From positions 372,001 to 436,000 of the forward strand of contig NZ_JABFNK010000005.1 in assembly GCF_020386975.1 (NCBI RefSeq): 64,000 bases of DNA, written 5' to 3'. Both the position numbers and the translations under genes were made by a program. This DNA is from Thermococcus bergensis (GTDB lineage Archaea > Methanobacteriota_B > Thermococci > Thermococcales > Thermococcaceae). Positions 3,559-48,848 of the stretch are shown piece after piece. The first letter of the stretch is position 1. The number at the start of each line of letters is the position of its first letter. The notes below the pieces were generated by a model. That model did no database searches. It was not told the origin of the DNA and worked only from the letters and a program-made list of their open reading frames with translations.

Positions 3559-4833
3559 ATGAAGGACAATCGGAACTTTTGGCTCTATGCAATGGGTCGG
3601 TTTGTTTCCCTTGTGGGCAGCGGGGTTCAGGATGTGGCGTTGCCATTGTTTATCCTCGTAACGGGATCGGGCACTATAATGGGCATTTTTATGATAATTT
3701 CAATGCTTCCAAGGTTGATTCTTTATCCAATTGCTGGAGTGGTGGGAGATAAAATCAATAGAAAGTGGATAATGGTGTGGATGGACTTTGGTAGGGGAGC
3801 GGTTATTCTGTTTCTGGCCCTTCTGGCTTCAAGAAATTTGATAACAATCCCCATTCTTTTCGCGGCACAGTTTGTCGTCTCGCTCATGAACGCTCTCTTC
3901 GGGCCAGCAACCGGTGCCATGCTCCCGGATATAGTGGAAAAAGAGGAATTAATGAGAGCAAACTCGATTTTGATGAGTCTTAACAGCACAGCTTATATAG
4001 TGGGTCCGGCCCTTGGTGGAATAATTTATGGAGTAGGAGGGATAATGGCAGCGTTTCTTATTAATGGTGTATCTTTTATAGCCTCCGGTGTTAGTGAGCT
4101 TTTCATAAGATACGAACAAAAAGTGGAGAAGATAAAGAACATCGGTGAGATTGTTGATGGTTTAAGAGATGGTTTAAATTACATAAGAGTCCAGAGAGGG
4201 ATACTAATTTTAATGAGCTTTGTTTTGGTGGTGAACTTTCTTGCAGTCCCAATATTTGCGGTTCTTTACCCCTATGTAATGAGGGTGGTCATTAAGTTTT
4301 CCGCAGAACAGTACGGGTTTTTGGAGACATCCTTTATGGGTGGTATACTTCTTGGGAACCTTCTAATTGGAGCATTTTTCGCAAAGAAAAAGGCTGAAAA
4401 TCTTTTAGTTAAGGGCTTAATATTTGAAACTGTCTTCCTGCTGGTTTTTGCCATTTTAATGTTTCCACAAAGCATTGCCTTCTTTTTGGGTCCCAGCTGG
4501 AGGATGTTTGGAGCTATTGCTCTGGTATCTGTTTTGATGGGAATTTCAAATGCTTTTGTAACTACTCCATTAAACGTGGAATTCCAGCAGCTTGTTCCCA
4601 CAGAATACAGGGCAAGAGTGTTTTCAGTTGTGGAAGTTATGAGTCAAGGAATAGTTCCTATAGGCTACGGTATGGTGGGAATACTCCTTGATAAACTTCC
4701 AGCCCATTGGATAGCTTTTAGCCTGACGGTTCTAATACTTATCTCAGTCTTGCTGTTTGTAGCGAAATATTCAAGGGTTGTGTTTATGGAATTTGAAAAT
4801 AAGAAGAAAGAAGTTGAAATGAACCTTCCTTGA
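3559..4833 (+). CDS. MFS transporter (EntS/MFS_3-like exporter)
   Basis: A 424-residue integral membrane protein with about 12 hydrophobic segments. The MFS loop motif appears as GVVGDKINRKW near residue 62, and the N-terminus (NFWLYAMGRFVSLVGSGVQDVALPLF) is typical of the enterobactin-exporter-like MFS group. The substrate is unknown; drug or metabolite efflux is the usual role. The ATG at 3559 has GGGGAGAG just upstream; an alternative ATG at 3547 would add four residues. An IS element sits 20 bp past its stop codon. Confidence 0.8.
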   Translation: MKDNRNFWLYAMGRFVSLVGSGVQDVALPLFILVTGSGTIMGIFMIISMLPRLILYPIAGVVGDKINRKWIMVWMDFGRGAVILFLALLASRNLITIPILFAAQFVVSLMNALFGPATGAMLPDIVEKEELMRANSILMSLNSTAYIVGPALGGIIYGVGGIMAAFLINGVSFIASGVSELFIRYEQKVEKIKNIGEIVDGLRDGLNYIRVQRGILILMSFVLVVNFLAVPIFAVLYPYVMRVVIKFSAEQYGFLETSFMGGILLGNLLIGAFFAKKKAENLLVKGLIFETVFLLVFAILMFPQSIAFFLGPSWRMFGAIALVSVLMGISNAFVTTPLNVEFQQLVPTEYRARVFSVVEVMSQGIVPIGYGMVGILLDKLPAHWIAFSLTVLILISVLLFVAKYSRVVFMEFENKKKEVEMNLP

Positions 4834-4853
4834 GGTCTCCCTATCTTGTTCCA

Positions 4854-5722
4854 GGGCGTGTTTAGTTTCACCCCCTGTTATTTAAACAGTATTTGACTCT
4901 GAGGAGGATTTTCAGACCATAACACATTACCCCAAGCAGGATTCGGGTTACAGTAGTCTTTTTCAGAAAACAGGGGATCCTACTGCCAAACCACGTTGTA
5001 AACGCACCCCAGAACCCCTCATGAGGATTCCTATGCCTGTACTCTTCTTCAGAAAACACTCTGTCTCTCTTCTTACTACCAAAACCACCTGGAGCGTTCT
5101 TAGTTTTCTTAACAATCGGCCGATAACCCTTTTCCACCACAGTGTTCAGAACTTTCTTTGAATCATAAGCCCCATCAGCATAAAAATTCCCAGAACCCCC
5201 CGGCAGGAGTTCAATCAGCTCGTTCTCAGAAGTTGTGATCTTCACAGCAACCGGATACAGTAAACCCGGCAGGATTCTCGTTATTGCCTGAACTTCTATC
5301 CTGCCCTTTTTTTATTTGTAATAATGGTTGAGTCTGCTTGAGTGCTGGCGTAGGGTAATTTCTGGAGTTTTTTCAGGAGGTGGTTTGTCAGTTCTTCGAG
5401 GTTCAGCTTTTTCTCCCAGTTGTGGAGGGTTGAGTAGTGAATGTTTGCTCCGAAGAATTTTCTGCCGTAGTGCTGGGCGTCTCTGAGAGGTAGGTTGTAG
5501 TATTGTTTAAAGAGGAGTATTGCCAGTATTGTTTTTACTGGAAATTTTTTGGATTTTGGCAGGTTCTTCAGCTTTCCTTCTGATTCGAAGTCTGCTAAAA
5601 CGTCAAGAATTGCGAATGCCACGCTTTCAGGGTCTTTGAGTCTGTGATCCCATCTGGGGATCACGACAACCACCCGAAAGAATTCAGCAAAAACCCTAAT
5701 AAAGGTTACTATAAACACGCCC
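4854..5722 (-). mobile_element. 869-bp IS4/IS5-type insertion sequence, copy 1
   Basis: A complete element. Its ends form imperfect terminal inverted repeats (GGGCGTGTTTA) and it is flanked by a perfect 10-bp target duplication, TCTTGTTCCA, at 4844-4853 and 5723-5732. Two other copies of exactly 869 bp are at 17590-18458 and 28117-28985. This copy and the 28-kb copy look almost identical, whereas the 17.6-kb copy differs at several bases. It landed in the gap between an MFS gene and leuS, directly next to a promoter-like sequence. Confidence 0.95.
4868..5664 (-). CDS. Transposase of the 869-bp IS (two reading frames joined by -1 shift), copy 1
   Basis: A DDE transposase. The upstream frame (GTG at 5664 behind GGGTGG, closing at 5296) carries the helical N-terminal region and the first catalytic Asp in TQADSTII. 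The downstream frame, ending at 4868, carries the second Asp in YADGAYDSKK and the block YRHRNPHEGFWGAF. That block fits the IS4/IS5 Y-(2)-R-(3)-E-(6) signature, with Thr where Lys is usual. The frames meet at an A7-G run (5307-5313 on this strand as T7). A -1 slip there gives one protein of about 265 residues. I cannot name the IS subgroup. Confidence 0.8.
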
Positions 5723-5731
5723 TCTTGTTCC

Positions 5732-5746
5732 AAAAGATTTAAATAT
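5732..5746 (+). promoter_or_regulatory. BRE/TATA-like promoter abutting the IS
   Basis: AAAAGATTTAAATAT looks like a BRE plus TATA element and predicts transcription from about 5770, well upstream of leuS. It starts inside the right-hand target duplication of the IS. A second TATA-like element (TTTTAAAAG near 5875) is better placed for leuS itself. Confidence 0.4.
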
Positions 5747-5769
5747 CCTAATATTAAGATAAAAGGCGA

Positions 5770-5850
5770 TGCTTATGAGGGGGGATCGAGTTCTCCACAG
5801 CCTGGCACTCCTCTTATGCTGAGTCTATTAGCTGTCCCCCTAGCTTCGAT
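5770..5850 (+). ncRNA. Candidate structured RNA upstream of leuS
   Basis: The segment can fold into one long stem-loop. AGGGGG (5778-5783) pairs with CCCCCT (5836-5841), ACAGC (5797-5801) with GCTGT (5831-5835) and ACTC (5807-5810) with GAGT (5821-5824). The 5' side holds a larger internal loop. It begins at the position predicted for the upstream promoter and has no ORF. It could be an independent small RNA, an H/ACA-like RNA (I see no clear ACA box) or a leader. The pairing was read by eye only. Confidence 0.3.
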
Positions 5851-5915
5851 TCTGAATTATTCTGGTGGCAAACTCTTTTAAAAGACACTTTTAACAACTC
5901 CAAGGAGGTTAGAAT

Positions 5916-8807
5916 ATGGTAGACTTCAAAGCTATTGAAGAAAAATGGCAGCATAAGTGGCTAGAAGAAAAAGTATTTGAGCCGCAAATAGATGAGAAGA
6001 AACCAAAGTTCTACATAACAGTTGCATTCCCCTACTTATCGGGCCACCTTCACGTCGGCCACGCGAGGACTTACACGATTCCCGACGTCATAGCGCGCTT
6101 CAAGAGGATGCAGGGCTACAACGTCCTCTTCCCGATGGCGTGGCACATCACCGGCGCCCCGATAGTCGGGATTGCGGAGAGAATAAAGAACCGCGACCCG
6201 AAGACCATACACATTTACCGCGACGTCTACAAGGTTCCGGAGGAAATACTCTGGAAATTCGAAGACCCCAAGGAGATAGTCAAGTACTTCATGAAGGCCG
6301 CGAAGGAGACCTTCATAAGGGCCGGCTTCTCCGTTGACTGGACGCGCGAGTTCCACACGACAAGCCTCTTCCCGCCCTTCAGCAAGTTCATCGAGTGGCA
6401 GTTCTGGACGCTCAAGGATCTCGGTTTAGTCGTCAAGGGCGCCCACCGTGTCCGCTGGGACCCCGTCGTCGGGACGCCCCTCGGAGACCACGACATAATG
6501 GAGGGCGAGGACGTACAGATACTGGAGTACGTCATAATCAAGTTCATCCTTGAGGAAAACGGCGAGACAATCTACCTGCCAGCGGCGACTCTGAGGCCTG
6601 AGACTGTCTACGGCGTCACCAACATGTGGCTGAACCCCGAGGCCACTTACGTGAAGGCAAAGGTCAGGCAGGGCGACAAGGAAGAAACCTGGATAGTCAG
6701 CAAGGAGGCTGCTTACAAGCTCTCCTTCCAGGACAGGGAGATAGAGGTCATCGAGGAGTTCAAGGGCGAGAGGCTCATCGGAAAGTACGTGAAGAACCCG
6801 GTAACCGGGGACGAAGTCATAATCCTCCCGGCGGAGTTCGTTGACCCGGACAACGCCACCGGTGTCGTCATGAGCGTTCCTGCCCATGCGCCCTTCGACC
6901 ACATTGCCCTCGAAGACCTCAAGAAGGAGACCGAGATACTGCTCAAGTACGACATCGACCCGCGCGTTGTCGAGGAGATAAGCTACATCTCGCTGATAAG
7001 CCTTGAGGGCTATGGGGACTTCCCGGCCGTTGAGGAGGTCGAAAAACTCGGCGTGAAGAGCCAGAAGGACGTGGAGAAGCTTGAAGAAGCGACCAAGAAC
7101 ATCTACAAGGCCGAGTACCACAAGGGCATCTTCAAGATAGAGCCATACGCCGGAAAGCCCGTCCAGGAGGTCAAGGAGCTGATAGCGAAGGAGCTCCAGG
7201 AGAAGGGCATAGCGGAGATAATGTACGAGTTCGCCGAGAAGCCGGTCATCTCGAGGTTCGGCAACCAGGCGGTCATCAAGATAATCCACGACCAGTGGTT
7301 CATCGACTACGGCAACCCAGAGTGGAAGGCTAAGGCGAGGGAGGCCCTTGCGAACATGACGATATACCCGGAGAGCAGGAGAGCCCAGTTTGAGGCCATA
7401 ATCGACTGGCTCGACAAGAAGGCCTGCGCCAGGAAGGTCGGCCTCGGGACGCCGCTCCCGTGGGACCCCGAGTGGGTGATCGAGAGCCTGAGCGATTCAA
7501 CGATTTACATGGCCTACTACACGATAAGCAGGCACATAAACATGCTGAGGGACGAGGGCAAGCTCGACCCCGAGAAGCTCGACAGGGACTTCTTTGACTA
7601 CATCTTCCGCGAGCCCTTCAGCGAGGAGAGGGAGAAGGCGCTGGCCGAGAAGACCGGAATCCCGGCTGAGATAATACACGAGATGAAGGAGGAGTTCGAG
7701 TACTGGTACCCGCTCGACTGGCGCTGTTCAGCAAAAGACCTCATCCCAAACCACCTGACGTTCTTCATCTTCAACCACGTGGCCATCTTTGACAGAAAGC
7801 ACTGGCCGAAGGGCATCGCCGTGAACGGCTTTGGAACCCTCGAAGGCCAGAAGATGAGCAAGAGCAAGGGCAACGTGCTGAACTTCATCGACGCCATCGA
7901 GGAGAACGGGGCCGATGTCGTCAGGCTCTACATCATGGGCCTGGCAGAGCACGACAGCGACTTCGACTGGAGGAGAAAGGAGGTCGGAAAGCTCCGCAGG
8001 CAGGTCGAGAGGTTCTACGAGCTGGTAAGCGAGTTCGCCACCTACGAGGCCAAGGAAAGCGTTGAGCTGAAGGACATAGATAAGTGGATGCTCCACAGGC
8101 TGAACAAGGCCATTGACGGGGCGACCAAGGCCCTTGAGGAGTTCAGGACGAGGACTGCCGTGCAGTGGGCCTTCTACTCCGTCCTCAACGACCTCCGCTG
8201 GTACCTCAGGAGAACGGAGGGAAGGGATGACGATGCCAAGCGCTACGTCCTCAGGACGCTCGCCGACGTGTGGGTTAGACTAATGGCGCCGTTTACTCCA
8301 CACATCAGCGAGGAGCTGTGGGAGAAGCTCGGCGGAGAGGGGTTCGTCAGCCTCGCGCCCTGGCCTGAGCCGGTTGAGGAGTGGTGGAACGAGACCGTTG
8401 AGGCGGAAGAGGAGTTCGTCAAGAGCCTCATCGAAGACATCAAGGAGATCATCAGCGTCGCAAAGCTCGAAAACGCGAAGAGGGCCTACGTCTACACCGC
8501 CCCGGAGTGGAAGTGGAAGGTCGTTGAGGTCGTCGCCGAGAAGAGGGACTTCAAGGCGGCGATGGCCGAGCTGATGAAGGACCCGGAGATGAGGAAGCAC
8601 GGCAAGGAGGTCAGCAAGCTCATCCAGCGCCTGATAAAGGAGAGGGCCTTCGAGGTGAAGAGAATTAACGAGGAGAAGGCCCTGAGGGAGGCCAAGGACT
8701 TCATCGAGAAGGAGCTCGGCATCGAAATAGTCATCAACCCGGAGGAGGACAATGGAGGGAAGAAGAAGGCCGCGATGCCGCTGAAGCCCGCAATATTTGT
8801 GGAGTGA
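5916..8807 (+). CDS. leuS: Leucyl-tRNA synthetase
   Basis: Charges tRNA-Leu with leucine. The 963 residues are typical for the archaeal/eukaryotic class Ia enzyme. The HIGH motif is HVGHART near residue 47, the CP1 editing domain lies roughly at residues 190-400, and KMSKS is [10 protein letters not shown] near residue 645. The start follows AAGGAGGTTAGAAT. Base use is odd: the first ~40 codons are AT-rich like the neighbours, but from about position 6040, at the codons for the HIGH motif, codons become strongly GC-ending up to the stop. This suggests gene conversion with a high-GC Thermococcus relative (see findings). Confidence 0.97.
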
Positions 8808-28116: not shown

Positions 28117-28985
28117 GGGCGTGTTTAGTTTCACCCCCTGTTATTTAAACAGTATTTGACTCTGAGGAGGATTTTCAGACCATAACACATTACCCCAAGC
28201 AGGATTCGGGTTACAGTAGTCTTTTTCAGAAAACAGGGGATCCTACTGCCAAACCACGTTGTAAACGCACCCCAGAACCCCTCATGAGGATTCCTATGCC
28301 TGTACTCTTCTTCAGAAAACACTCTGTCTCTCTTCTTACTACCAAAACCACCTGGAGCGTTCTTAGTTTTCTTAACAATCGGCCGATAACCCTTTTCCAC
28401 CACAGTGTTCAGAACTTTCTTTGAATCATAAGCCCCATCAGCATAAAAATTCCCAGAACCCCCCGGCAGGAGTTCAATCAGCTCGTTCTCAGAAGTTGTG
28501 ATCTTCACAGCAACCGGATACAGTAAACCCGGCAGGATTCTCGTTATTGCCTGAACTTCTATCCTGCCCTTTTTTTATTTGTAATAATGGTTGAGTCTGC
28601 TTGAGTGCTGGCGTAGGGTAATTTCTGGAGTTTTTTCAGGAGGTGGTTTGTCAGTTCTTCGAGGTTCAGCTTTTTCTCCCAGTTGTGGAGGGTTGAGTAG
28701 TGAATGTTTGCTCCGAAGAATTTTCTGCCGTAGTGCTGGGCGTCTCTGAGAGGTAGGTTGTAGTATTGTTTAAAGAGGAGTATTGCCAGTATTGTTTTTA
28801 CTGGAAATTTTTTGGATTTTGGCAGGTTCTTCAGCTTTCCTTCTGATTCGAAGTCTGCTAAAACGTCAAGAATTGCGAATGCCACGCTTTCAGGGTCTTT
28901 GAGTCTGTGATCCCATCTGGGGATCACGACAACCACCCGAAAGAATTCAGCAAAAACCCTAATAAAGGTTACTATAAACACGCCC
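28117..28985 (-). mobile_element. 869-bp IS4/IS5-type insertion sequence, copy 3
   Basis: Perfect 10-bp target duplication TCTTTTGCAG at 28107-28116 and 28986-28995. The sequence looks practically the same as copy 1 at 4854-5722, so these two moved recently. It lies 50 bp upstream of tRNA-Gln, right next to that gene's TATA element. Confidence 0.95.
28131..28927 (-). CDS. Transposase of the 869-bp IS (two frames, -1 shift), copy 3
   Basis: Same organisation as copy 1: GTG at 28927, first frame closing at 28559, T7 slip run at 28570-28576, second frame ending at 28131. An apparent extension of the first frame to 29131 is an artefact that reads through the IS end and the tRNA gene. Confidence 0.8.
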
Positions 28986-29035
28986 TCTTTTGCAGTAAAA
29001 TTTATAAATGAGACCATAAAGTAGTGATTGGGTAC

Positions 29036-29111
29036 AGCCCCGTGGTGTAGCGGCCAAGCATGCGGGACTTTGGATCCCGCGACCGGGGTTCGAATCCCCG
29101 CGGGGCTACCA
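29036..29111 (+). tRNA. tRNA-Gln (TTG)
   Basis: Complete cloverleaf with encoded CCA. The acceptor stem is AGCCCCG/CGGGGCT, the anticodon arm CGGGA-CTTTGGA-TCCCG with TTG at 34-36, and the T-arm GGTTCGAATCC. A TATA element (AAAATTTATAAATG, about 28998-29011) lies about 30 bases upstream. The gene is bounded by one IS 50 bp upstream and another 31 bp downstream, in its T-rich terminator. Confidence 0.97.
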
Positions 29112-29142
29112 TACCATGGGCTCCAGACCAAACCTTTTTTTA

Positions 29143-30074
29143 ACCCTAGTTCCCACCACCTGTGAAGTTGTATAATCTGTCCAGATTCACGGCCAGAATC
29201 GCCCCTAAAATCCTGACAGCTAACCCCCTCAAACTAACACTCCTGCTCGGCCTCAGAAGAAACTCAGAAAACTTCGAAAACAAAGTCTCAATCCTCCTGC
29301 GAAAGTCAGACAAGTACTTGTAAAACTTCTTCTCCTCCAGATTACTAACCTGATTCTCCCGCTTCACCGGCGTGTAAACAACGCCAAACTTCAGGAATTC
29401 CTCCTGAAGTTCTCTACTAACGTAACCCTTATCCAAAAACAGAAAACAGCCAGAAAACTCCTCAACAATCACCCAGAACTTTTCCCTGACAACACTCACA
29501 TCATGCTTATTCGCCGGATCAACGGACAGCAAAGCCAGCAAATTTCCATCAGAGTAACAGGTCAGCTTGTACCCATAGTAAAACTTTTTTTAGAGGGAAC
29601 AAACCCAACTGCGGGCTTTTCAGAGATGACTTCTGAAGAACCCTCCTTATCCTTCCTGTTTTTTCTGGCCAACTCCTTGGTCTGAATGGGCTTTGAGTCC
29701 AGTATTCTAACGTATTCTCTGGCGTGTTTTTTGAATAATTCTTCCTGCGCTAGGAGCAGGAGTTTTTCGTGCCTGTTCAAGCGTTCTGTTAGTTTGTTGT
29801 ACCTGATTTTGGGGAACAGCTTCATTTCTTCGATTAGGACTCTGTAAGCGTGCTTGTAAACTCCGTTAAAGTGCAAGTGTGCTAGTATTGCGAAGGTTAT
29901 TAGGTCGTAGAGGCTGATTATTTCCCTGTGAGTGTTTTTCGGGTAGTGTTTGCTGATTATCGGATAGATTTCGGATTTTATGATCAGGATTTCCTGCTGA
30001 AAGTTCATAACAACCACCAATCAACCAAAAGACTTAAGTGCTTATAACTCTAACGATCTAATGGGAACTAGGGT
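29143..30074 (-). mobile_element. 932-bp IS982-family element, copy B
   Basis: 13-bp terminal inverted repeats as in copy A. An 8-bp duplication, TTTTTTTA, lies at 29135-29142 and 30075-30082, so it inserted into the oligo-T terminator of tRNA-Gln. Its coding sequence looks identical to copy A. Confidence 0.96.
29146..30008 (-). CDS. IS982 transposase (two frames, -1 shift), copy B
   Basis: Same as copy A: start at 30008 behind GGTGGTTGTT, first frame closing at 29562, T7 slip run at 29585-29591, second frame ending at 29146. The predicted frameshift product is about 287 residues. Confidence 0.88.
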
Positions 30075-30976: not shown

Positions 30977-31924
30977 TCAAACCTTTATGCCGCCCATTAT
31001 AAGAGCCATGGCTGCCTTTTGAGCATGTAACCTGTTCTCTGCTTGATCCCAGACCACGCTGTTTGGTGAGTCTATGACGTCGTCGGTGACTTCCTCTCCC
31101 CTGTGTGCCGGGAGGCAGTGCATAAAGATGTAGTCCTTCTTTGCATGCTTTACGAGCTCTTTGTTAACTTGGAATGGCATGAATATCTTTCTCCTCTGCT
31201 CAGCCTCCGCTTCCTGTCCCATTGAGGCCCAGACATCGGTGTAGATTACATCGGCATCTTTAACAGCTTTAATCGGGTCGTGGAGGAGCTCAAAGCTCCC
31301 ACCGCTTTCGGCGGAATTTTCCTCAGCCCACTTGATAACTTTTGGATCTGGCTCGTAGCCCTCTGGGGTGGCAACCACCACATTAGCCCCAAGCTTGGTT
31401 CCGGCTATCATTAGGGAGTGAGCGACGTTGTTTCCATCGCCAACGTAGACAACTTTGAGACCTTCAATTCTTCCCTTCTTTTCTTTTATGGTCATGTAGT
31501 CAGCCAAAGCCTGGCATGGGTGTGCAAAGTCGCTGAGACCGTTTATGACTGGAACACTAGCGTATTTTGCAAGGTCAACAACGTCCTGGTGGTCAAAAAC
31601 TCTCGCCATTATTCCGTCCACATATCTGCTTAGAACTCTCGCGGTGTCTGCTATCGTTTCTCCCCTTCTCAACTGCAAATCTTGGGCATTTAGATATAAC
31701 CCATATCCACCAAGTTGGTAGATTCCAACCTCAAAGCTTATTCTTGTTCTTGTGGAAGGCTTCTGGAAGATCATAGCGAGGGTTTTACCCTCAAGAACGC
31801 GATGTGGCTTTCCAATCTTGTTCCAGATTTTCATCATTTCAGCTGTTTTGAGAATTGTCTCAATTTCTTCTCTTGTAAAGTCTTGAAGGCAGAGGATATC
31901 CCTTCCGGCTAAGCTCACTACCAT
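30977..31924 (-). CDS. argF: Ornithine carbamoyltransferase
   Basis: Forms citrulline from ornithine and carbamoyl phosphate. 315 residues. The carbamoyl phosphate site KPSTRTRISFE is near residue 52, HPCQALAD near 133, the ornithine-binding region near DVWASMGQE, and HCLPAHRGEEV near 263. The start at 31924 follows GGTGATGCAC. In Thermococcales this enzyme can work in carbamoyl phosphate use as well as arginine synthesis. No other arg gene is nearby. Confidence 0.95.
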   Translation of the reverse strand: MVVSLAGRDILCLQDFTREEIETILKTAEMMKIWNKIGKPHRVLEGKTLAMIFQKPSTRTRISFEVGIYQLGGYGLYLNAQDLQLRRGETIADTARVLSRYVDGIMARVFDHQDVVDLAKYASVPVINGLSDFAHPCQALADYMTIKEKKGRIEGLKVVYVGDGNNVAHSLMIAGTKLGANVVVATPEGYEPDPKVIKWAEENSAESGGSFELLHDPIKAVKDADVIYTDVWASMGQEAEAEQRRKIFMPFQVNKELVKHAKKDYIFMHCLPAHRGEEVTDDVIDSPNSVVWDQAENRLHAQKAAMALIMGGIKV

Positions 31925-39537: not shown

Positions 39538-40293
39538 TCAAAATACTCCACCATGAATTGAGACAAATGCCTTTCTTATCTCTTCATACTCTTCAAGAAT
39601 ATCCTCATTTGGTTCTTTTATTCCTCTCCTAACGTACCAGGCTGGATGTCTAAGGTAAATTGCACCAAGGCCAAGCTTTTTCAGGGCTTTCTGAGCAGTT
39701 CTGCCGACGGCAAAAATAGTTTTAGGCTTGAGGATATCGAGTTCCCTCCCCAAAAGCCCTAGCTCCTTTTCCCCAAATCCTTTCAGCTTGTTTTCCGGAG
39801 GATTGCACTTAACAACATTGGTGATGTACACAAAATCCGGGTTTATGCCGAGAGAAAAGAGGGTCTTCCTAAGAAGCATTCCCGAGGCATCTCTGTAGAA
39901 GCATATTCCCGTTAATCCGCACCCCTTTCTGCCCGGCGCTTCACCTATTAAAGCAATTTTTGAACCCACCCATCCGTTTGCAAAGGGCAAGCCTTCAAAG
40001 GCTTTTATTTTCATCTGGTATTCATAGTTTTCTCTACTGCAGAACCTCAAGGGAGATCTAAGAAATTCATGATAAAGCTTAACAAGCTCATAAGCCTTTT
40101 TCTCATCCTTCTCATCTTTGACCAGAAACCTTTCCTTCGGGTTGTATAGGGTTTTAGCATAAACCCCATAGGTTTTCTCATCCAGAGAAAGAAGGTCTCT
40201 CCACGTCTTTAAGAATAACGGCATGGTTTTGAAGTTTTTTGGATTTATATAAACTTCGCCAATCCTTTTAAGGCTCTCAAACCTCAGCAGCAT
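39538..40293 (-). CDS. Uracil-DNA glycosylase superfamily protein
   Basis: 251 residues. Motifs: GEAPGRKGCGLTGICFYRDASG near residue 126 (motif A with an inserted cysteine segment), TNVVKCNPPEN near 166 and a late LRHPAW (motif B region). This fits the family 4/5-like thermophilic glycosylases, but the long N-terminal extension is unusual. The ATG at 40293 has no ribosome binding site, yet a TATA element (AATTATAAATC) lies about 25 bases upstream, so the mRNA is probably leaderless. Confidence 0.75.
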   Translation of the reverse strand: MLLRFESLKRIGEVYINPKNFKTMPLFLKTWRDLLSLDEKTYGVYAKTLYNPKERFLVKDEKDEKKAYELVKLYHEFLRSPLRFCSRENYEYQMKIKAFEGLPFANGWVGSKIALIGEAPGRKGCGLTGICFYRDASGMLLRKTLFSLGINPDFVYITNVVKCNPPENKLKGFGEKELGLLGRELDILKPKTIFAVGRTAQKALKKLGLGAIYLRHPAWYVRRGIKEPNEDILEEYEEIRKAFVSIHGGVF

Positions 40294-40295
40294 AA

Positions 40296-40310
40296 AGGAT
40301 AAAATGTCCA
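40296..40310 (+). promoter_or_regulatory. Cobamide-cluster palindrome upstream of the 40336-41643 operon
   Basis: AGGATAAAATGTCCA matches the palindrome at 13 of 15 positions. It overlaps the TATA-like ATAAAAT that would serve the rightward operon ending in cobZ, and also lies at the start of the leftward glycosylase transcript. Confidence 0.6.
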
Positions 40311-40335
40311 ATAGATTTATAATTTTGGTGGTGGC

Positions 40336-40575
40336 ATGGAGACAAAATTTTGTGAGGGAATAATTGTAAAAGGAAAAAGCCCACAAGAAAGCTGCGCCCT
40401 CCACTTCTGGAAGGCTCCATGGAAAAGGGGATTTAAAGGAGCAATTAGCGGAGCTATAAGAGCTTATCCATGGCTATGCCTTAACTGTGGTGCGATAATT
40501 CCTTACGTGGAGGAGGCAGAGCTTCAAAAAGTCAAAGAGGAATACGAAGAGGCAAAGCTGGAGGGAAGGCTTTGA
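40336..40575 (+). CDS. Small CxxC protein of unknown function in the cobamide cluster
   Basis: 79 residues, not recognised. A CxxC pair is in YPWLCLNCGAIIPYVEEAEL near residue 45, a possible half zinc site; the C-terminus is a charged helix (LQKVKEEYEEAKLEGRL). The start has GGTGGTGGC. It overlaps the next gene by TTGA, so it belongs to the operon ending in cobZ. Confidence 0.6.
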   Translation: METKFCEGIIVKGKSPQESCALHFWKAPWKRGFKGAISGAIRAYPWLCLNCGAIIPYVEEAELQKVKEEYEEAKLEGRL

Positions 40576-41216
40576 GGGGTGTAACTTTTTTCTCAGGTGG
40601 AAAGGATGGATTATACGCCCTCTATCTTGCCGAAAAGAGAGGTATCAAAGTTCCCTATTTACTTGCCCTCAAGACTTCAATTGGACTATCTCCCCACTGG
40701 GAAAATTTTGATGCCCTTAAGATCATTGCAAATGCCATGGGGAAAACTCTCCTTACCTTTGACATGGCAGAAGGAGGAGATTCTTTAGCCAGATTCATAG
40801 CATCCCTTGAAGTTGATTATCTCATAGCAGGGGACATATTCCTAGAAGAACACCTAAAGTGGGTGGAGTGGCTTGCTGAAAAAGCCGGTGTTAGAAGCTT
40901 AGAACCCCTGTGGGGACGAAATACGCTTGAGCTAGCCGAAGAGATTCTTAATACTGGCTTTGAATATGCAATAATTGCAGTAAATAAGGAAAAACTTGGA
41001 AAAGACTGGTTAGGATATAAGTTTTCCTCCCTGGAAGATTTAGATGTATTCTTAGACAAGAACCCCGCCGTAGATCCGCTCGGTGAAAGGGGAGAGTTCC
41101 ACACGGTAACACTCTCCGGCCCACTCTTTAGGGAGCGTTTTAAGCTTGAAAAGCTTTCCATTGAGAAAAGCGAAAAGTATTGGTGGTTAAGGTTTAAGGT
41201 GATGAGGGATGATTGA
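40572..41216 (+). CDS. PP-loop ATPase of the diphthine-ammonia ligase (Dph6) family
   Basis: 214 residues. N-terminal ATP pyrophosphatase loop FFSGGKDGLYAL, then the family segments DYLIAGDIFLEEHLKWVEWL and GEFHTVTLSGPLF. Dph6 amidates diphthine on elongation factor 2. Here the gene is coupled (TTG start overlapping the previous stop) to a small CxxC gene and to cobZ behind a cobamide operator, so a paralogous role in cobamide metabolism is possible. I cannot decide between the two from sequence. Confidence 0.78.
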   Translation: MRGVTFFSGGKDGLYALYLAEKRGIKVPYLLALKTSIGLSPHWENFDALKIIANAMGKTLLTFDMAEGGDSLARFIASLEVDYLIAGDIFLEEHLKWVEWLAEKAGVRSLEPLWGRNTLELAEEILNTGFEYAIIAVNKEKLGKDWLGYKFSSLEDLDVFLDKNPAVDPLGERGEFHTVTLSGPLFRERFKLEKLSIEKSEKYWWLRFKVMRDD

Positions 41217-41643
41217 AAAGCTTAATTCCAAGGGAATAACCCTTGAAAAAATGCTCGATACTGCCCTGGAGCTCTACATCGGAGAAGAGAGAGAAAAGGT
41301 CAAAGAAAAACTCAAGGAAATCATGCTCCACTATCTAAACGATATAAATATCCAAGCACTTTTGACAGCTGCTCTGCTCTTGGAAGAGGACTTCAAAGTT
41401 GAAGGTGATCCGATAAACCTAGTTGCCGATGAGCTCATCGGGATTAACATAGCTGAGTATATTGGGGGCAAGATGGCTCTGTTCAACTTCTTTTACTACG
41501 ACACAAAAAAGCCCGGGATTTTAAAGGAGCTCCCTCCTTTCCTAGATGATGCCATAGGAGGATTCATTGCCGGATGCATGACAAAGCTCTTCGAGCTCAC
41601 TTCATCCGGGACTCCCAACGAAGGGGGAGGAATAACAATCTAA
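41209..41643 (+). CDS. cobZ: Alpha-ribazole phosphatase, CobZ type
   Basis: 144 residues. The ending DDAIGGFIAGCMTKLFEL matches the phosphatidylglycerophosphatase A-like fold used by CobZ, the archaeal replacement for CobC. CobZ removes the phosphate from alpha-ribazole phosphate or the cobamide phosphate in the last steps of assembly. It overlaps the previous gene by 8 bp and the convergent ABC permease by 4 bp. PgpA itself is the alternative, but context favours CobZ. Confidence 0.72.
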   Translation: MIEKLNSKGITLEKMLDTALELYIGEEREKVKEKLKEIMLHYLNDINIQALLTAALLLEEDFKVEGDPINLVADELIGINIAEYIGGKMALFNFFYYDTKKPGILKELPPFLDDAIGGFIAGCMTKLFELTSSGTPNEGGGITI

Positions 41644-42338
41644 TCTTCCCTGAACTCGATGGTAAGAATCAATACCAAGCACAAAACTAGCCAGAACACT
41701 AATGATGCCATAGACAAACCCCCATATTGCGGATGCTCATATGCTATCAGGTGGGAAGCACTGACGGTGGGTATCAGGAGGAGAACATAGCGTAGTTTCT
41801 CGGGTGCGAGAGTTATGGGGTAATAAACCGGAAGAAAAACCGTTAGTATGGTTGTTAAAACCGTTGACAGCCTCATAACCGTAAGGGGTTCCCTCATTTT
41901 GACACCGATGTACATTCCAATGGTCGTGCTCCATATCCACAGAGAAACCACACCGAAGGCTACATATCTTATGTGAGAAAGCCCAAACTTTGCGAGGAGA
42001 GTGAGGATGAGTATCGCCAAGTAAGGCGTAGCCGGCAAACTCATGCCTATCGATATTCCGAGCATCTTCTCTGCTGAATTCCCAGGTAAAGACATCATTA
42101 TATCGTAAAATTTTGAACGAACTTTCATCCCCACCAGCTCTATTGGAAGATCTGCCATCCCAACCCCAATGATGAAGCTGATGATGGCTCCTGCAATGGC
42201 AGATGAAAGAAATCTGCCCTCACTAATCACATAGACGATAAAAATAAACGAAAGTGGTTGTATGGCAAAACTTAAGATTGAGCTTTTGCTCTTCATTAAT
42301 GCGTTCCCATAATACTCAATTATTGCCCAGAGGTTCAT
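41640..42338 (-). CDS. ABC-2 type permease of the radical SAM operon
   Basis: 232 residues with six hydrophobic segments, the ABC-2 exporter pattern. No ligand motif. It overlaps the ATPase gene by 4 bp (ATGA), so the pair makes one exporter. With the radical SAM gene and the small peptide gene upstream, it would be the export step of a modified-peptide system. Confidence 0.82.
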   Translation of the reverse strand: MNLWAIIEYYGNALMKSKSSILSFAIQPLSFIFIVYVISEGRFLSSAIAGAIISFIIGVGMADLPIELVGMKVRSKFYDIMMSLPGNSAEKMLGISIGMSLPATPYLAILILTLLAKFGLSHIRYVAFGVVSLWIWSTTIGMYIGVKMREPLTVMRLSTVLTTILTVFLPVYYPITLAPEKLRYVLLLIPTVSASHLIAYEHPQYGGLSMASLVFWLVLCLVLILTIEFRED

Positions 42339-43216
42339 CTCAAATCCCCCACAAGGAATATATCTTCTATGGTCAGTTCCTCTCTTTTAAAAGGGATTCC
42401 AGTATCTTTTAGCTCCTCAATCACCTCTCTTTCCTCTGATTTTGACTTGGTATAGACGAAAGTGTTCTTCCCTGCCCTCCTTGTTGTATAGTCCTCCTTG
42501 GTAAACTCCCCAAAAACAACTATCTTCGAATGGAACTGTGATAGATACTGCCGTGCAATTTTCTCGGGTTTACCAAAAGCAACCACCCTTCCTTTTTTAA
42601 GGAGAAGCACGTTGTCGCATACGCTGGAAATTTCGTTCAAATAGTGGCTTGTTATTACTACGGTGGAGTTCTTGCTTTTTTCTCTCAATATTTCCCACAA
42701 CTTCAGGCGATTTTCAACGTCGAGCCCCACAGTAGGCTCATCCAGATAGTAGATTTTAGCATCAGCCGACAAAATCATGGCGAGCAGAGTTTTCCTCACC
42801 ATGCCACCCGAAAGCGTTGACATTATCTTATCGGCATAGTCAATGCCAAACTCCTCCACAGCCTTTCCAGCCCGAATCTTGGCATCTTTCCTTGAAAATC
42901 CACGCATCCTGAGGTAGTGGTAAATGTACTCGAAAGGCGTGAGGGTGTAAAAATGGGACTTTGCCTCTTGAGGCAGGAGCGCAAAGAGGTTTTTAATTTC
43001 GCTTTTGCGGGAATTAACCTCATGACCGTACAGGAGTATTCTGCCCTTGTCCGGTTTAAGCAGTAAACTGAGAATTCTCACTAAGGTTGTTTTTCCCGCA
43101 CCGTTCGGCCCAATAATCCCGAGAATGCCCCCTTCCTGCACTGAAAAAGTTAAGGAATCGAGGGCTTTGATTTCTCCATAGCTCTTGGTGAGATCTTCAA
43201 CTGCTATTGCTTCCAT
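42335..43216 (-). CDS. ABC transporter ATPase of the radical SAM operon
   Basis: 293 residues. Walker A GPNGAGKTT near residue 36, signature LSGGM near 133, Walker B IYYLDEPTVGLD near 150 and the switch HYLNE near 190. The ABC-2 exporter subclass (CcmA-like) has a C-terminal extension. The start at 43216 overlaps the end of the radical SAM gene by 13 bp, so the proteins are made in a coupled manner. It has no peptidase domain, so any leader peptide would have to be cut by another enzyme. Confidence 0.9.
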   Translation of the reverse strand: MEAIAVEDLTKSYGEIKALDSLTFSVQEGGILGIIGPNGAGKTTLVRILSLLLKPDKGRILLYGHEVNSRKSEIKNLFALLPQEAKSHFYTLTPFEYIYHYLRMRGFSRKDAKIRAGKAVEEFGIDYADKIMSTLSGGMVRKTLLAMILSADAKIYYLDEPTVGLDVENRLKLWEILREKSKNSTVVITSHYLNEISSVCDNVLLLKKGRVVAFGKPEKIARQYLSQFHSKIVVFGEFTKEDYTTRRAGKNTFVYTKSKSEEREVIEELKDTGIPFKREELTIEDIFLVGDLR

Positions 43217-44610
43217 TCTTCCCCCTCCAACTTGGAGGTGTACAATTGGTTTAATGGGGAGCCTGGAATATCTTTTGTGCAATACAGTTCTCGGGGTATG
43301 GCCTTGCAAAACGTGTTGCAATATCCTTTCTTATAAAGAACGCATTGTCTGCATTCAGGAGCAACCAAGTTGAATTTATCCTTTTCAGGATCATCAATGC
43401 CGATCCTGAAGTATTCTGCAAGGGGAGATGCCAATATGTCTTTTAAAGAGTTTTGAAAAATATTGCCTAATTTAAACTTTTGATCCCTAAGAAAGACGCA
43501 AGGATATACATCCCCATTTGTATGTATTTGTATTTGAAAATTAACTGCGCCGCATCTGGCAGTTGGTTTTGTAGGGGGCGGATTAAGGGGTGTCACACCC
43601 GCTAAAGACTTCAACACAGTTACATTTTTTGCTTGTTTTGATCCTTGAAGTATCAAGTGGTATGCCTCTACTAGTTCGTTAAGGGAGAGCCCTTCGGATT
43701 TTATGAATTTTCCTCTACCAATAGGGATTAATGCTCCATAAACCCAGCTATCCGCTCCTAATGAATCAACGAGTTTAATAATATCGGGCAATTCATGCAA
43801 GTTTCTTTTACCTATGGTAGTGCCAACAACGATCATTGTTCTATGATGGTTCTTATCTCTGGCAAGGTTTTTGATAGCCCAAATTACTTTATCATAAGTC
43901 CCATACCCCCGATAAAATTCGTGAGTGTCTCGTGTTGCTCCATCCAATGCTATCTGGATTTCATCAACATACTCCTTAACAATGGACAACAATTTTTGAT
44001 TCTTATACAATGGAGTTCCATTAGTGGCAACTATCACATAAAATCCACGATCTTGAGCATCTTTTAGTATTTTGTCAATCTCTGGATGAAGAAGGGGTTC
44101 TCCTCCAGTAACCCATAAAATTGGGATTCTAAGAGTTTCAAGTTCGTCAAACACATGCAAAACTTCATCAAAACTCATGTACAGATTTGTGTGAGGTCCA
44201 GAATTAGCATAACAGTATTTGCAAGCCAAATTACAGTAGGATGTAATCTCTACTGCTGCTAGATGAGGAGCAGAGTATGAGTATGGGTGTGCTTGGGGAT
44301 ATGGAGAAAGGAATTCTGTAGTAAATCCCAGCAATTTGCTTAGGCGTTCGTAGAGCATAGCCTCGGCATTTTCTCGAGTCATTCCAAAAGCATTTTGCAT
44401 CATTGAAACAATTTTTTCATAAGGTACATGTGACTTAGCAAGTTCAAGTAGTGCAATAGTTCCAAGGTCTGTGTAAACTTCAAAACCTTTTGTATCCTTT
44501 TTGCTACTAATCTTGTGAAGTACTAATCCCCGTCCTTCCTCTTTTCTCCAGTAGAAAACTCCTGAGTCAACAAGCCTCTGAAGCTTCAAATACAAATCTT
44601 CAGTGTTCAT
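43204..44610 (-). CDS. Radical SAM/SPASM peptide-modifying enzyme with PqqD-like N-terminus
   Basis: 468 residues in three parts. Residues 1-100 resemble a PqqD-type RiPP recognition element (DLGTIALLELAKSHVPYEKI followed by helices). Residues 112-330 are a radical SAM barrel with CNLACKYCYA binding the 4Fe-4S cluster and VTGGEPLLHPE. The C-terminus is a SPASM region with cysteines in CGAVNF, VYPCVF, CRQCVLYKKGYCNTFC and LYC. Enzymes with this build cross-link or otherwise modify ribosomal peptides, or modify cofactors. AGGAGGG precedes the start. It follows a 51-codon peptide gene and precedes an ABC exporter. Confidence 0.88.
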   Translation of the reverse strand: MNTEDLYLKLQRLVDSGVFYWRKEEGRGLVLHKISSKKDTKGFEVYTDLGTIALLELAKSHVPYEKIVSMMQNAFGMTRENAEAMLYERLSKLLGFTTEFLSPYPQAHPYSYSAPHLAAVEITSYCNLACKYCYANSGPHTNLYMSFDEVLHVFDELETLRIPILWVTGGEPLLHPEIDKILKDAQDRGFYVIVATNGTPLYKNQKLLSIVKEYVDEIQIALDGATRDTHEFYRGYGTYDKVIWAIKNLARDKNHHRTMIVVGTTIGKRNLHELPDIIKLVDSLGADSWVYGALIPIGRGKFIKSEGLSLNELVEAYHLILQGSKQAKNVTVLKSLAGVTPLNPPPTKPTARCGAVNFQIQIHTNGDVYPCVFLRDQKFKLGNIFQNSLKDILASPLAEYFRIGIDDPEKDKFNLVAPECRQCVLYKKGYCNTFCKAIPRELYCTKDIPGSPLNQLYTSKLEGEEWKQ

Positions 44611-44660
44611 TTTACTCCCTCCTTTGACTCATACACAAAAATTAAAAATACAATAGGGGA

Positions 44661-44816
44661 TCAAAAACCACTTATTGACCATGCCCTTGAGTTGCACTGT
44701 CTGCCTGCACACAATGGGGGGATTTGGGAGTAGTTGAATTCTGGCTTGGTCTCGACTATGTTTTTAACAAGTTCCAAAATTTCCGCTTCTTGCTTGGCGT
44801 CCGCCGCGCAAATCAC
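44661..44816 (-). CDS. Candidate RiPP precursor peptide (51 residues)
   Basis: Open frame from GTG at 44816 to TGA at 44661, 50 bp ahead of the radical SAM gene on the same strand. It begins VICAADAKQEAEILELVKNI, a helical leader-like part. It ends in a short tail with two cysteines, LCAGRQCNSRAWSISGF, which looks like a core peptide. A TTG at 44837 would add seven hydrophobic residues. A TATA-like element (AAATTTATAATT, minus strand, about 44839-44850) fits a nearly leaderless start at the GTG; there is no clear ribosome binding site. It could instead be a gene remnant cut by the MITE just upstream. Confidence 0.5.
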   Translation of the reverse strand: MICAADAKQEAEILELVKNIVETKPEFNYSQIPPLCAGRQCNSRAWSISGF

Positions 44817-44867
44817 CAGTAGTATATTTAAACACAAAAATTATAAATTTTACTTTTGATACTTCAA

Positions 44868-45063
44868 TATTGTCCAGGATAATCAGTAGGACGTTAGAGT
44901 TAGACTATCTTAAGTTAAGATTCCATAAAAAAGATGAAAAAAGATTAAGACTGAACCCACCTAGTAAACAATGATTTCAGCCTTTATATTCCCCTCAACT
45001 TTTTCTGATTTTCTCAAGTAGTATTAGTGATTTAAATCGCCCCTACTGCTTATCCTGGCAGTA
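44868..45063. mobile_element. IS6-derived MITE, about 196 bp
   Basis: Both ends carry inverted copies of the left end of the IS6-type element at 16749: the motif CAGGATAAKCAGTRGGRCG is on each side, facing inward. Read on the minus strand, the interior follows the IS6 left end as far as the palindromic segment around its transposase start (GCTGAAATCATTGTTTACT compared with ACTGAAACCATTATTTACT). No transposase remains. The 8-bp flanks do not match. It lies between the radical SAM operon and cobS. Confidence 0.75.
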
Positions 45064-45101
45064 TTCGTACATGGGGCAGACTTTTTAAGCTTTCTTGCAA
45101 T

Positions 45102-45116
45102 TGGATTAATTAGCCA
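45102..45116 (+). promoter_or_regulatory. Cobamide-cluster palindrome at the cobS-cobY promoter
   Basis: TGGATTAATTAGCCA matches the palindrome TGGAYAAWTTRTCCA at 13 of 15 positions and is itself nearly symmetric. A TATA-like CTTTTTAAGC (45081-45090) puts the predicted transcription start inside this site. Confidence 0.55.
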
Positions 45117-45125
45117 GGTGGTTGC

Positions 45126-45821
45126 ATGAGAAACATCATCCCGTTTATGACAAGAGTCCCAATAAGGGGAGACTTCGAAAAAGCTAGGAATGAAATATGG
45201 GCCTTTCCTCTGCTTGCTACCCTTACCTCCTCTCTGCCCACTTTGATTTTATACCTTGACCTTCCTATGAAAAACATCTTAGCAATTCTCTCGCTTTACT
45301 CCACAATAGGCCTACTCCACTTGGACGGGCTAGCCGATTGGGCCGATGGAATTATGGTTAAAGGAGACAGAGAAAGGAAAATTGAAGCCATGAAAGATCT
45401 GAACACGGGTATAGCTGGAATTTTTGCTGTTGTAATGGTACTTTTTGTTCAGATATACTCTCTAAACTATCTCCCATTTTATGCAATATTTCTAGCTGAG
45501 CTGAACTCAAAGTATGCAATGCTCCTTGCTTTAGCCACCAAAAAACCACTTGGATCAGGATTAGGATGGTATTTTATGGAAAAGATGAACAAAAGGCAAT
45601 TGGCTGTTGGCACCTTGTTATACTCGATCCTCATCTTCCCTATAGGATTTTATAACCCAAAGGCCATTTTTTCAGTTGTTGGACTTTTGGTTAGTGCATA
45701 CGTCATGAAGGTTAGTATAGACAATTTCGGAGGTTTAAATGGGGACTGCATTGGAGCAATAGCAGAGATAACAAGAGCCGGAACACTTTTACTTATGGCT
45801 TTTGTCTGGTGGTGTCTATGA
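45126..45821 (+). CDS. cobS: Cobalamin synthase (adenosylcobinamide-GDP ribazoletransferase)
   Basis: Membrane enzyme joining adenosylcobinamide-GDP to alpha-ribazole (phosphate). 231 residues, about six hydrophobic segments. [11 protein letters not shown] at the N-terminus and [17 protein letters not shown] near residue 60 (the Asp-rich active site) are diagnostic, as is [14 protein letters not shown] near the end. Its stop codon overlaps the cobY start (ATGA). Confidence 0.94.
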
Positions 45822-46369
45822 TAATCATCTTAGCGGGTGGAAAATCTACCAGAATGGGAAAAGAAAAACCAGTATTGAAAATAGCAGATAAAGAAATGCT
45901 CCTCTGGGTTTACAATGAGAGCTCAAAGATAGATGAAACCCTTGTTGCTCTCTCGAAGAACACACCAAAAACCAGGGAACTATGCCTCCGGGAGAGGATT
46001 CCCTTCGTCAACACGCCAGGAAGAGGATATGTTGAAGACGTTCAGTGGCTCTTGAAGGAGTTTGGGCCATTTGTAAGCGTCTCAGCCGATCTGCCTTTCG
46101 TAAAGGCGTGTGATATTGCCCTCATAAGAAGCGAGCTTGAAAAGAAAAAAACCAGCATCACTGGAGTTTTACCTTTAAACATAGTCCCAAAAGACCTTGG
46201 AGTTGCAACTTACAGAGGATACGCAATTGTAGGAATTAATGGAGTTTCCTATGAGGGAGAAGAATTCGTTAAGCTAAGAAACCCTCTTTTGGCAATAAAC
46301 GTGAACACACCAAGAGAGCTTGAACTTGCAAACAGAATTGCCAAGCTCCTACACTCCAAGTTCACTTAG
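45818..46369 (+). CDS. cobY: Adenosylcobinamide-phosphate guanylyltransferase, archaeal CobY
   Basis: Adds GMP from GTP to adenosylcobinamide phosphate; the archaeal substitute for bacterial CobU. 183 residues with the nucleotidyltransferase motif [17 protein letters not shown] at the start and SADLPFVK near residue 90. Translationally coupled to cobS. Its end overlaps the convergent cobQ by 21 bp. Confidence 0.9.
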
Positions 46370-47800
46370 GATGTAATTGAGGTCTAAGTTTTCTTCCACA
46401 ACTCTGGAAAATCTTTCAATTTCCTCCTCTAGACTCCACTCCTTGAGGCTTAAGGACTCAAGACCCTTCTCCAAGCGAAGCATGTTTAAAAGCCGCTCTG
46501 TGAATGCGAAGTTGTGAAAGATTCCGTGGAGATACGTTCCAAAGCTTCTCTCACCTATAGCTCCCTCGGGCTCGAAGGCTTTGGCACCGTTTATCTCCTT
46601 TATTATTGAGAACGGCCTCTCACTTGTGGAACGTCCCATCCTTATCTCGTAGCCCTCAACTTCCATTTCCTTGGCTTGCTCCCACAGTATTTTCGATTTC
46701 AGGTGGTTGGTTCTCTTTTCCATCGTGAAGATCGTTTTAGCTGGCAGAAGACCGATGCCCCTAACCTTGCCTCTCTTTGACTCGACATTGTCTATTATCT
46801 CCTTCCCAAGCATCTGAAAGCCGCCGCAGATTCCCACAACGAATGAACCCTCGCGGTGGGCCTGAATTATGGCATCTTCAATCCCATTCTCCCTCATCCA
46901 GAGCAAATCTTCCACCGTGTTTTTGCTCCCTGGAATAATTATTAAATCTCCTTCAATCTCGTCGGCTTTTGTTACATAATCAACACCGTTGGCCCACTGA
47001 AGGGGCTCGAAATCGGTGAAGTTGCTTATATGTGGAAGCTTGATGATCTGTATGTGCAGGTCACCTTTAACTTTAGGAAACTCTGCTAAGGAATCTTCCT
47101 CTGGCAGTTTGTGATCCACATAGGGGATAACTCCCAAGACCCTCTTCCTATATCTCTGCTCCAAATATCCAAAGCCGGGTTCAAGGAGAGATTTATCGCC
47201 CCTAAACTTGTTAAAAACAAATCCCATAACTAGCTCCCTTTCCTCCTCGCTTAAAAGCTCCATCGTGCCTACTATTGAAGCAAAACTACCTCCCCTATCT
47301 ATGTCAGCCACGAGAATAACTTTGGCATTTGCATGCCTTGCAACCCGCATATTTGCAATATCATAATCCTTCAAGTTTATCTCCACAGGGGAACCCGCTC
47401 CCTCAATTACTACAACATCATGACTATGCATAAGCTCATCTAGAACCCTCATGGCTCTTTTAAAGAGCTCCTCCTTGGTGGAAAGCATGTATTCTCTGGC
47501 TGAGACACTTCCGATGGGCTTTCCCATAAAAACTACTTGACTTCTCATGTTCCCCTCAGGTTTTAGAAGAATGGGGTTGAACCTCACAGAAGGTTTCTTC
47601 TTACATGCCAAAGCTTGCAAATATTGAGCCCTGCTTATTTCTCCCCCTTCAATGCTTGGAGCAGAATTTAAACTCATGTTCTGGCTTTTAAATGGAACCA
47701 CATCATAGCCGAGATTTGTAAGACTCCTGCACAGTGCAAGGGCCAATAAAGATTTTCCGGCTCCTGAAGAAGTACCTTGAATCATCAAAGCTCTACCCAT
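46349..47800 (-). CDS. cobQ: Adenosylcobyric acid synthase (CobQ/CbiP)
   Basis: Amidates cobyrinic acid a,c-diamide four times using glutamine and ATP. 483 residues. The N-terminal dethiobiotin-synthetase-like domain has [19 protein letters not shown]; the C-terminal class I amidotransferase has the catalytic Cys in [11 protein letters not shown] near residue 332 and a late His in [10 protein letters not shown]. The start at 47800 follows GGTGATGATT. It lies 28 bp after btuF on the same strand, so the two are one operon. Confidence 0.93.
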
Positions 47801-47828
47801 AATCATCACCAAAAAGAGAAAAAAAGAA

Positions 47829-48848
47829 TCAGCCTGCCGTAGCTTCACATACGAGAGGCTGATATGTGAAGTTAAACACATCTGGATGTAAGAACTTTGC
47901 GATTTCCTCCAATCCCTCGACTATCCTTGGAGTTGGCCTTGAGACAATGTCATCACTGCTTAGAGTGTAAACTCTCCCAGTTTTTACGGCATCAGTGTTC
48001 ACAAGCTGAGTATTGCAGAGATCCTCTGCATTCATTCCCGCATGTGGAGGAAGGATTATTACTTCCGGATTTCTTGCCAAGACTTCTTCAACACTTACTT
48101 GCGGCCAGCCCTGAGTATCTCCAAAGATGTTTTCTCCCCCTGCCAATGTTATGAGATCGTTGATGAAAGTACCGTTACCAGCGGTCATCAGAGGATCGCT
48201 CCAGACTATATAAAAGACCTTTACCCTCTGTGCGTCTTGAACCTTGCTCTCTATTTCCTCAATTTTGTCCTTCATTTCAGCTACAACTTCATTTGCTTTC
48301 TCTTCTTTATTCGTAACTTCCCCCAAAAGTTCAACTGCTTTGTAGATTTCATCTATACTCTTTGGGTCAATGATTATAACTGGGGCTATCTTTTCAAGTT
48401 GTTCTAAGTATTTGAGATGCATTGACGTACCAACTATAAGGTCTGGATTCAAAGATGCTATCACCTCTATATTGGGATCAGAAAATCCCCCGACAACGGT
48501 TCTTCCTTCCTGAACATTCTCCGGGTAGTTGTCGAATTTTGTCACTCCAACAACTTTGTCAAGAGCACCTATAAAGTAAAGGGTTTCCGTGATACTAGGA
48601 GCTAAAGATACTATTTTTTGAGGCTCTTTCTCTATGGTGACTTCCCTTCCGGCAAAATCAACTATAGTTAATGGATATTTAGGAGCAGGAGTTTGGGTTT
48701 CGCTTACTGTATTTGTTGTGGTTGTCGCGGATGTCACTTTTTCTTCAGTAGTTTCTGTTGTGGTAGGGGTGGTTTGAGTTTGCCCGATGCAACCTGCTAT
48801 AACAACTCCAAACATAAGCAGTACCAGCACAATGGCTACCTTTCTCAT
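47829..48848 (-). CDS. btuF: Cobamide-binding ABC transporter lipoprotein (BtuF-like)
   Basis: 339 residues. A lipoprotein-type signal peptide ends at IAGC near residue 19, followed by a Thr/Glu-rich linker and the class III binding fold: [26 protein letters not shown] at the start of the domain and [12 protein letters not shown] as the joining helix. It captures corrinoids outside the membrane. The matching BtuC/BtuD genes are not in the window. The start at 48848 has GGTGAGGTAC. Context makes corrinoid more likely than iron-siderophore. Confidence 0.85.

Follow-up and report, generated by a model that had tools for sequence, protein, structure and literature searches.

The window, a stretch of 64,000 nucleotides of Thermococcus bergensis DNA, carries four genes on the minus strand, within the region 41640-44837, in the order peptide, radical SAM/SPASM enzyme, ABC transporter ATPase and membrane permease (Table 1). 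The peptide and radical SAM genes are separated by exactly 50 bp, followed by overlaps of 13 bp (radical SAM/ATPase) and 4 bp (ATPase/permease). A four-gene operon with this gap and these overlaps had been described in a first-pass annotation of the DNA, and all of its coordinates were confirmed. The peptide frame remains open upstream of its GTG codon as far as a TTG at 44837, and the TATA-like box is the likely promoter of the operon, judging by its sequence. ABC-2 permease models matched two of eight aligned relatives of the permease, although the window permease itself yielded no Pfam match. No protease gene was found within the cassette.

Table 1. Coordinates of the peptide operon and its borders in the window.
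Feature	Position	Strand	Details and basis
Precursor peptide gene	44661-44816	minus	GTG start (44814-44816), 51 codons; core homologue in G030, 4/4 co-occurrence with the enzyme
Precursor peptide parts			Leader ~1-31, conserved core 33-51; PPLCAGRQCNSRAWSISGF
Radical SAM/SPASM maturase, predicted N-terminal RRE (residues ~17-101)	43204-44610	minus	468 aa; Pfam, 7-Cys SPASM region, AlphaFold2 and Foldseek
ABC transporter ATPase	42335-43216	minus	293 aa; Pfam ABC_tran 3.1e-27; Walker A, LSGG and Walker B present
ABC-2-type membrane permease, divergent	41640-42338	minus	232 aa; hydropathy and ABC-2 model matches of relatives
TATA-like box TTTATAAT	44838-44850	minus	~29 nt upstream of the peptide GTG; read from the sequence
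Inserted segment	41625-45072		Homology to empty-site relatives ends at 41624 and restarts at ~45073
MITE-like element	44866-45065		17-nt terminal inverted repeats 44874-44890 / 45042-45058

The cassette could be compared in two divergent versions, those of the window and of a genome of another genus (G030). In G030 a frame of the same size lies directly before an enzyme of approximately 75-76% identity, and its product matches the window peptide with a blastp E-value of 3e-19. The two peptides align without gaps; 15 of the final 19 residues are identical (PPLCAGRxCNSxAWxIxGF), whereas the leader has diverged, with 10 of 32 residues kept. The conserved core extends to the extreme C-terminus and contains two conserved cysteines, C36 and C41, and one conserved Trp. 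Five of the 19 core codons are identical between the two genomes, ten carry silent changes and four carry replacements; it is therefore the protein sequence that is kept, and this comparison of codons identifies the 51-codon frame as a real gene with its core under purifying selection. A search of 94 Thermococcaceae genomes with a model of the peptide matched exactly the four carriers of the enzyme, the next best match having an E-value of 0.006. Peptide and enzyme thus occurred together in all four cases and never apart, so that the small gene noted ahead of the enzyme proved to be always and only beside it. A second match to LCAGRQC, at 31104 on the plus strand, was dismissed as a coincidence, being antisense to HCLPAHRG, a conserved ornithine carbamoyltransferase motif.

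The CxxxCxxC motif and the cysteine-rich C-terminal SPASM region reported previously were both verified in the enzyme. The former lies at residues 126-133, followed by GGEP at 169-172, and the SPASM region has seven cysteines (C353, C371, C420, C423, C431, C435 and C444); Pfam matches were obtained to Radical_SAM (5.7e-24) and SPASM (1.1e-12). The locus has two features by which radical-SAM RiPP systems are recognised, namely CxxxCxxC with a SPASM auxiliary-cluster domain and an adjacent precursor with a conserved core and a diverging leader. Among the genomes searched, the only divergent homologue of the enzyme is that of G030, and a scan of 115 genomes from the phylum at a threshold of E 1e-40 found the enzyme in the four carriers and in none of the remaining 111. 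Close relatives were absent from viral contigs, plasmid matches were all generic radical SAM proteins of less than 60% identity, and among genome contigs a single other close record was found, a Thermococcales MAG. Thermococcaceae enzymes of 33% identity (L042-L046) were set aside as a different family, lying beside B12-type radical SAM genes and without a peptide.

No NCBIfam family model reached its cut-off with the enzyme. The highest score was that of the mycofactocin maturase (TIGR03962; 118.2 bits, cut-off 265), and the tungsten-enzyme maturase model W_rSAM_matur (TIGR04317) gave 107.7 bits against 380. Scores were likewise below cut-off for the sactipeptide maturases AlbA (97 against 850 bits) and StsB (110 against 625) and for the ranthipeptide models SCIFF (63.6 against 425) and PapB (76.4 against 340). 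A predicted model of the whole enzyme (pLDDT 67) matched CteB, SuiB and SkfB best in Foldseek, with alignments that span almost the entire enzyme. In a simple sequence search CteB (1e-12) and SkfB (1e-11) likewise came first. All three of these proteins are RiPP maturases.

The resemblance of the enzyme N-terminus to PqqD, claimed in the first-pass annotation, was examined by structure prediction. Residues 1-110, modelled with AlphaFold2 from an alignment of two sequences (mean pLDDT 77), comprise, in this order, a helix, three beta strands (19-24, 28-33 and 43-45) and three alpha helices (49-59, 64-75 and 79-101). Against 350,542 PDB chains the top Foldseek match was a leader-bound lasso-peptide B1 protein (6jx3, probability 0.97). 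Among the matches listed, only leader-bound TbiB1 (5v1u; 0.69 and 0.66) otherwise exceeded 0.5, the remainder being at or below 0.18. The E-values of these matches were weak (0.19 and up), and weight was placed on their specificity rather than on their significance. On sequence alone no Pfam RRE model matched the enzyme, and profile comparison with PqqD gave nothing usable. The fold predicted for residues 1-110 is that of a RiPP recognition element (RRE), in agreement with the earlier claim.

Further radical SAM loci were observed elsewhere in the same genome (G000). A second cassette of like layout, with overlapping genes and IS elements at its borders (L148; G000:C3:58000-72000, 4519-8685), encodes an ApyD-like B12 radical SAM protein, the gene of which is apparently truncated beside an IS, a CefB-like radical SAM/SPASM enzyme, an ABC ATPase and a DrrB-like permease. 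At L053 (G000:C5:1095000-1110000, 5065-8044) the gene of a PapB-like radical SAM enzyme (159 bits, short of the cut-off) overlaps that of a 551-aa ABC protein of the peptide-exporter type, and an IS lies just upstream, at the position expected of a precursor gene. A stand-alone PqqD-like protein precedes a ScmF-like radical SAM enzyme and an MFS-like transporter at L054 (G000:C5:592000-605000, 3981-7039), and a PqqD-like/radical SAM pair near two contig ends (G000:C4:82296-83990 and G000:C5:1379-3083) perhaps represents a duplication or an assembly overlap.

The operon splits a cobamide salvage cluster, with cobZ on one side and cobS on the other, as had been noted. In two genomes that are 96-98% identical around the site (G004 and G002) cobZ and cobS are adjacent, separated by approximately 150 unrelated bases. 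Since homology to these empty sites breaks at both borders, the window has gained a segment of 3.4-3.45 kb by insertion or replacement. At the right end of this segment lies the MITE-like element, which is related (approximately 67% identity) to repeats at some 15 other sites in the genome; a MITE had previously been placed at this border of the cassette. Elsewhere in the window, at 28131-30020, transposase genes are fragmented, and their types recur many times across the genome.

Between the window genome and G007, which belongs to a different species, the cassette shows two differences in 3.4 kb, while genes a few kb away differ by 10-14%. Divergence rises gradually on either side; in an alignment of window positions 40000-48000 with the G007 locus (L041) it falls from 10-14% to near zero and returns across approximately 6 kb, a recombination tract with the cassette at its centre. 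A near-identical cassette amid such flanks indicates recent interspecies exchange, and the pattern in the sequences is the mark of homologous recombination that included flanking DNA. Together with the empty sites in close relatives, this near-identity between species bears out the suggestion that the cassette was acquired.

The exporter has a separate history. Members of its family occur in 41 of the 94 genomes, usually without peptide or enzyme and often beside the thermosome gene. In G062, G064, G068 and G073 the genes follow the same order as in G030 (S9 peptidase, ATPase, permease), and the gap ahead of the ATPase is only about 40 bp. Trees group the exporter of G030 with that of G064. 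From this shared S9-peptidase locus and the trees it follows that the peptide and enzyme of G030 precede a resident exporter. Identity between the window and G030 declines from the enzyme (75%) to the ATPase (65%) and the permease (59%). The closest relative of the window exporter is in a third genus (G020), where approximately 90 codons of a broken enzyme lie directly upstream. The simplest account of these sequences would be that a peptide-plus-maturase module has joined one exporter family at least twice, with one decayed case; alternatively, the module may have been lost from several lineages. The window genome encodes another exporter of this family (L060; G000:C5:158000-174000, 4531-8542), in which the permease homology ends early and which lies directly beside pieces of transposase genes.

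We consider it likely that the operon is a mobile, SKF-like radical-SAM RiPP cassette, in which modification, leader removal and export or protection would proceed as follows. The 51-residue precursor would be made, and the N-terminal recognition domain of the enzyme would bind its leader; the enzyme would then modify the conserved C-terminal core. Since the core has two conserved cysteines, the likeliest modification is thioether cross-linking from C36, C41 or both; in sactipeptides such as SKF and subtilosin, cysteine sulphur is linked to an alpha-carbon. The conserved Trp might instead take part in a carbon-carbon link. The leader would be cut off by an unlinked host peptidase, and the ABC-2 pair may export the product, protect the producer, or both, after the example of SkfE/SkfF in the SKF system of Bacillus. 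The product could serve in antagonism or signalling between Thermococcales. The first-pass annotation had proposed a cross-linked and exported peptide; the RiPP layout stands, whereas cross-linking is a step that we infer, as is export by the ABC pair, since the exporter family is usually found without the peptide.

On a rival reading the enzyme does modify the peptide, whereas the exporter is unrelated, being a resident multidrug- or lipid-type ABC-2 pump that lies downstream by chance or serves in immunity only. The occurrence of the exporter family in 41 of the 94 genomes, usually apart from the other two genes, speaks for this, as does the G030 exporter, which belongs to a local S9-peptidase locus and is sister to exporters without the enzyme. 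Enzyme and exporter genes overlap in both genera, however, and three lineages have the enzyme or its remnant directly before the same exporter family. This reading is judged unlikely.

Readings that assign the peptide or the enzyme another role fare worse. A peptide that served as precursor of a small redox cofactor, like PqqA or the mycofactocin precursor, would not be secreted, and such a role could accord with a mycofactocin maturase as the best sub-threshold model and with a conserved part that reaches the extreme C-terminus. The score of 118 bits is nevertheless far under the cut-off of 265, mycofactocin partner genes do not adjoin the enzyme, and a sporadic presence (4/94) with recent interspecies exchange is ill-suited to a core cofactor; we regard this role as improbable. 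It is more improbable still that the enzyme serves to mature a different protein, such as a tungsten enzyme, with the small frame as a by-product. The W_rSAM_matur score of 107.7 bits might hint at such a function, but the cut-off of that model is 380, no tungsten enzyme gene adjoins the enzyme in either genus, and the peptide frame, which goes with the enzyme, is conserved by purifying selection. The RiPP reading of the first-pass annotation was likewise upheld on the two points that could have told against it, as an RRE fold is predicted and a peptide gene, with no tungsten enzyme, lies beside the homologue.

Radical-SAM systems that pair a peptide with an exporter are well known in bacteria. 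A 2025 survey by genome mining reported radical-SAM RiPP clusters (ranthipeptides and sactipeptides) widely in archaea, including Euryarchaeota; it characterised only lanthipeptides and none of the radical-SAM products, and Thermococcales are unmentioned in its text (PMC12144867). No described RiPP or sactipeptide system of Thermococcales was found in the literature searched, which largely excluded subscription journals. To our knowledge, peptide antagonism and signalling in hyperthermophilic archaea are little explored. The Thermococcales are an order with working genetics, and a compact system with a defined core makes it testable whether they produce radical-SAM cross-linked peptides that survive approximately 85-100°C, and what the targets of these are. 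Recent interspecies exchange of the cassette suggests a trait under current selection. More speculatively, such cassettes might encode antagonistic peptides, cross-linked by radical SAM enzymes and exported, that would be the first class of their kind in the hyperthermophilic Thermococcales, with a mobile peptide-maturase module that plugs into any resident member of the exporter family; this wider proposal is advanced tentatively.

The skf cluster of Bacillus subtilis resembles the window cassette in its short precursor, RRE-bearing radical SAM maturase and two-gene ABC transporter for export or resistance (PMC8172795), and SkfB ranks with the top hits of the window enzyme in both structure and sequence. 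The window cassette differs in having no skfC protease, skfG or skfH, its precursor is unrelated and its host is archaeal; the enzyme has a full seven-Cys SPASM region as opposed to the twitch domain of SkfB. An N-terminal RRE is carried by both SkfB and CteB (PMC8172795). CteB of the SCIFF (ranthipeptide) system is the closest solved relative by sequence and fold (5wgg), with RRE, radical SAM and SPASM domains common to both enzymes, whereas SCIFF precursors contain six Cys in 45 residues and the window precursor two conserved cysteines. SuiB (5v1s) matches the fold of the window enzyme over its full length, and its product, streptide, contains a Lys-Trp carbon-carbon link. The window core also has a conserved Trp, but the Lys-Trp pair of the SuiB substrate does not occur in the conserved core. 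With the window cassette, a new family of precursor and maturase is added to the known radical-SAM RiPP type.
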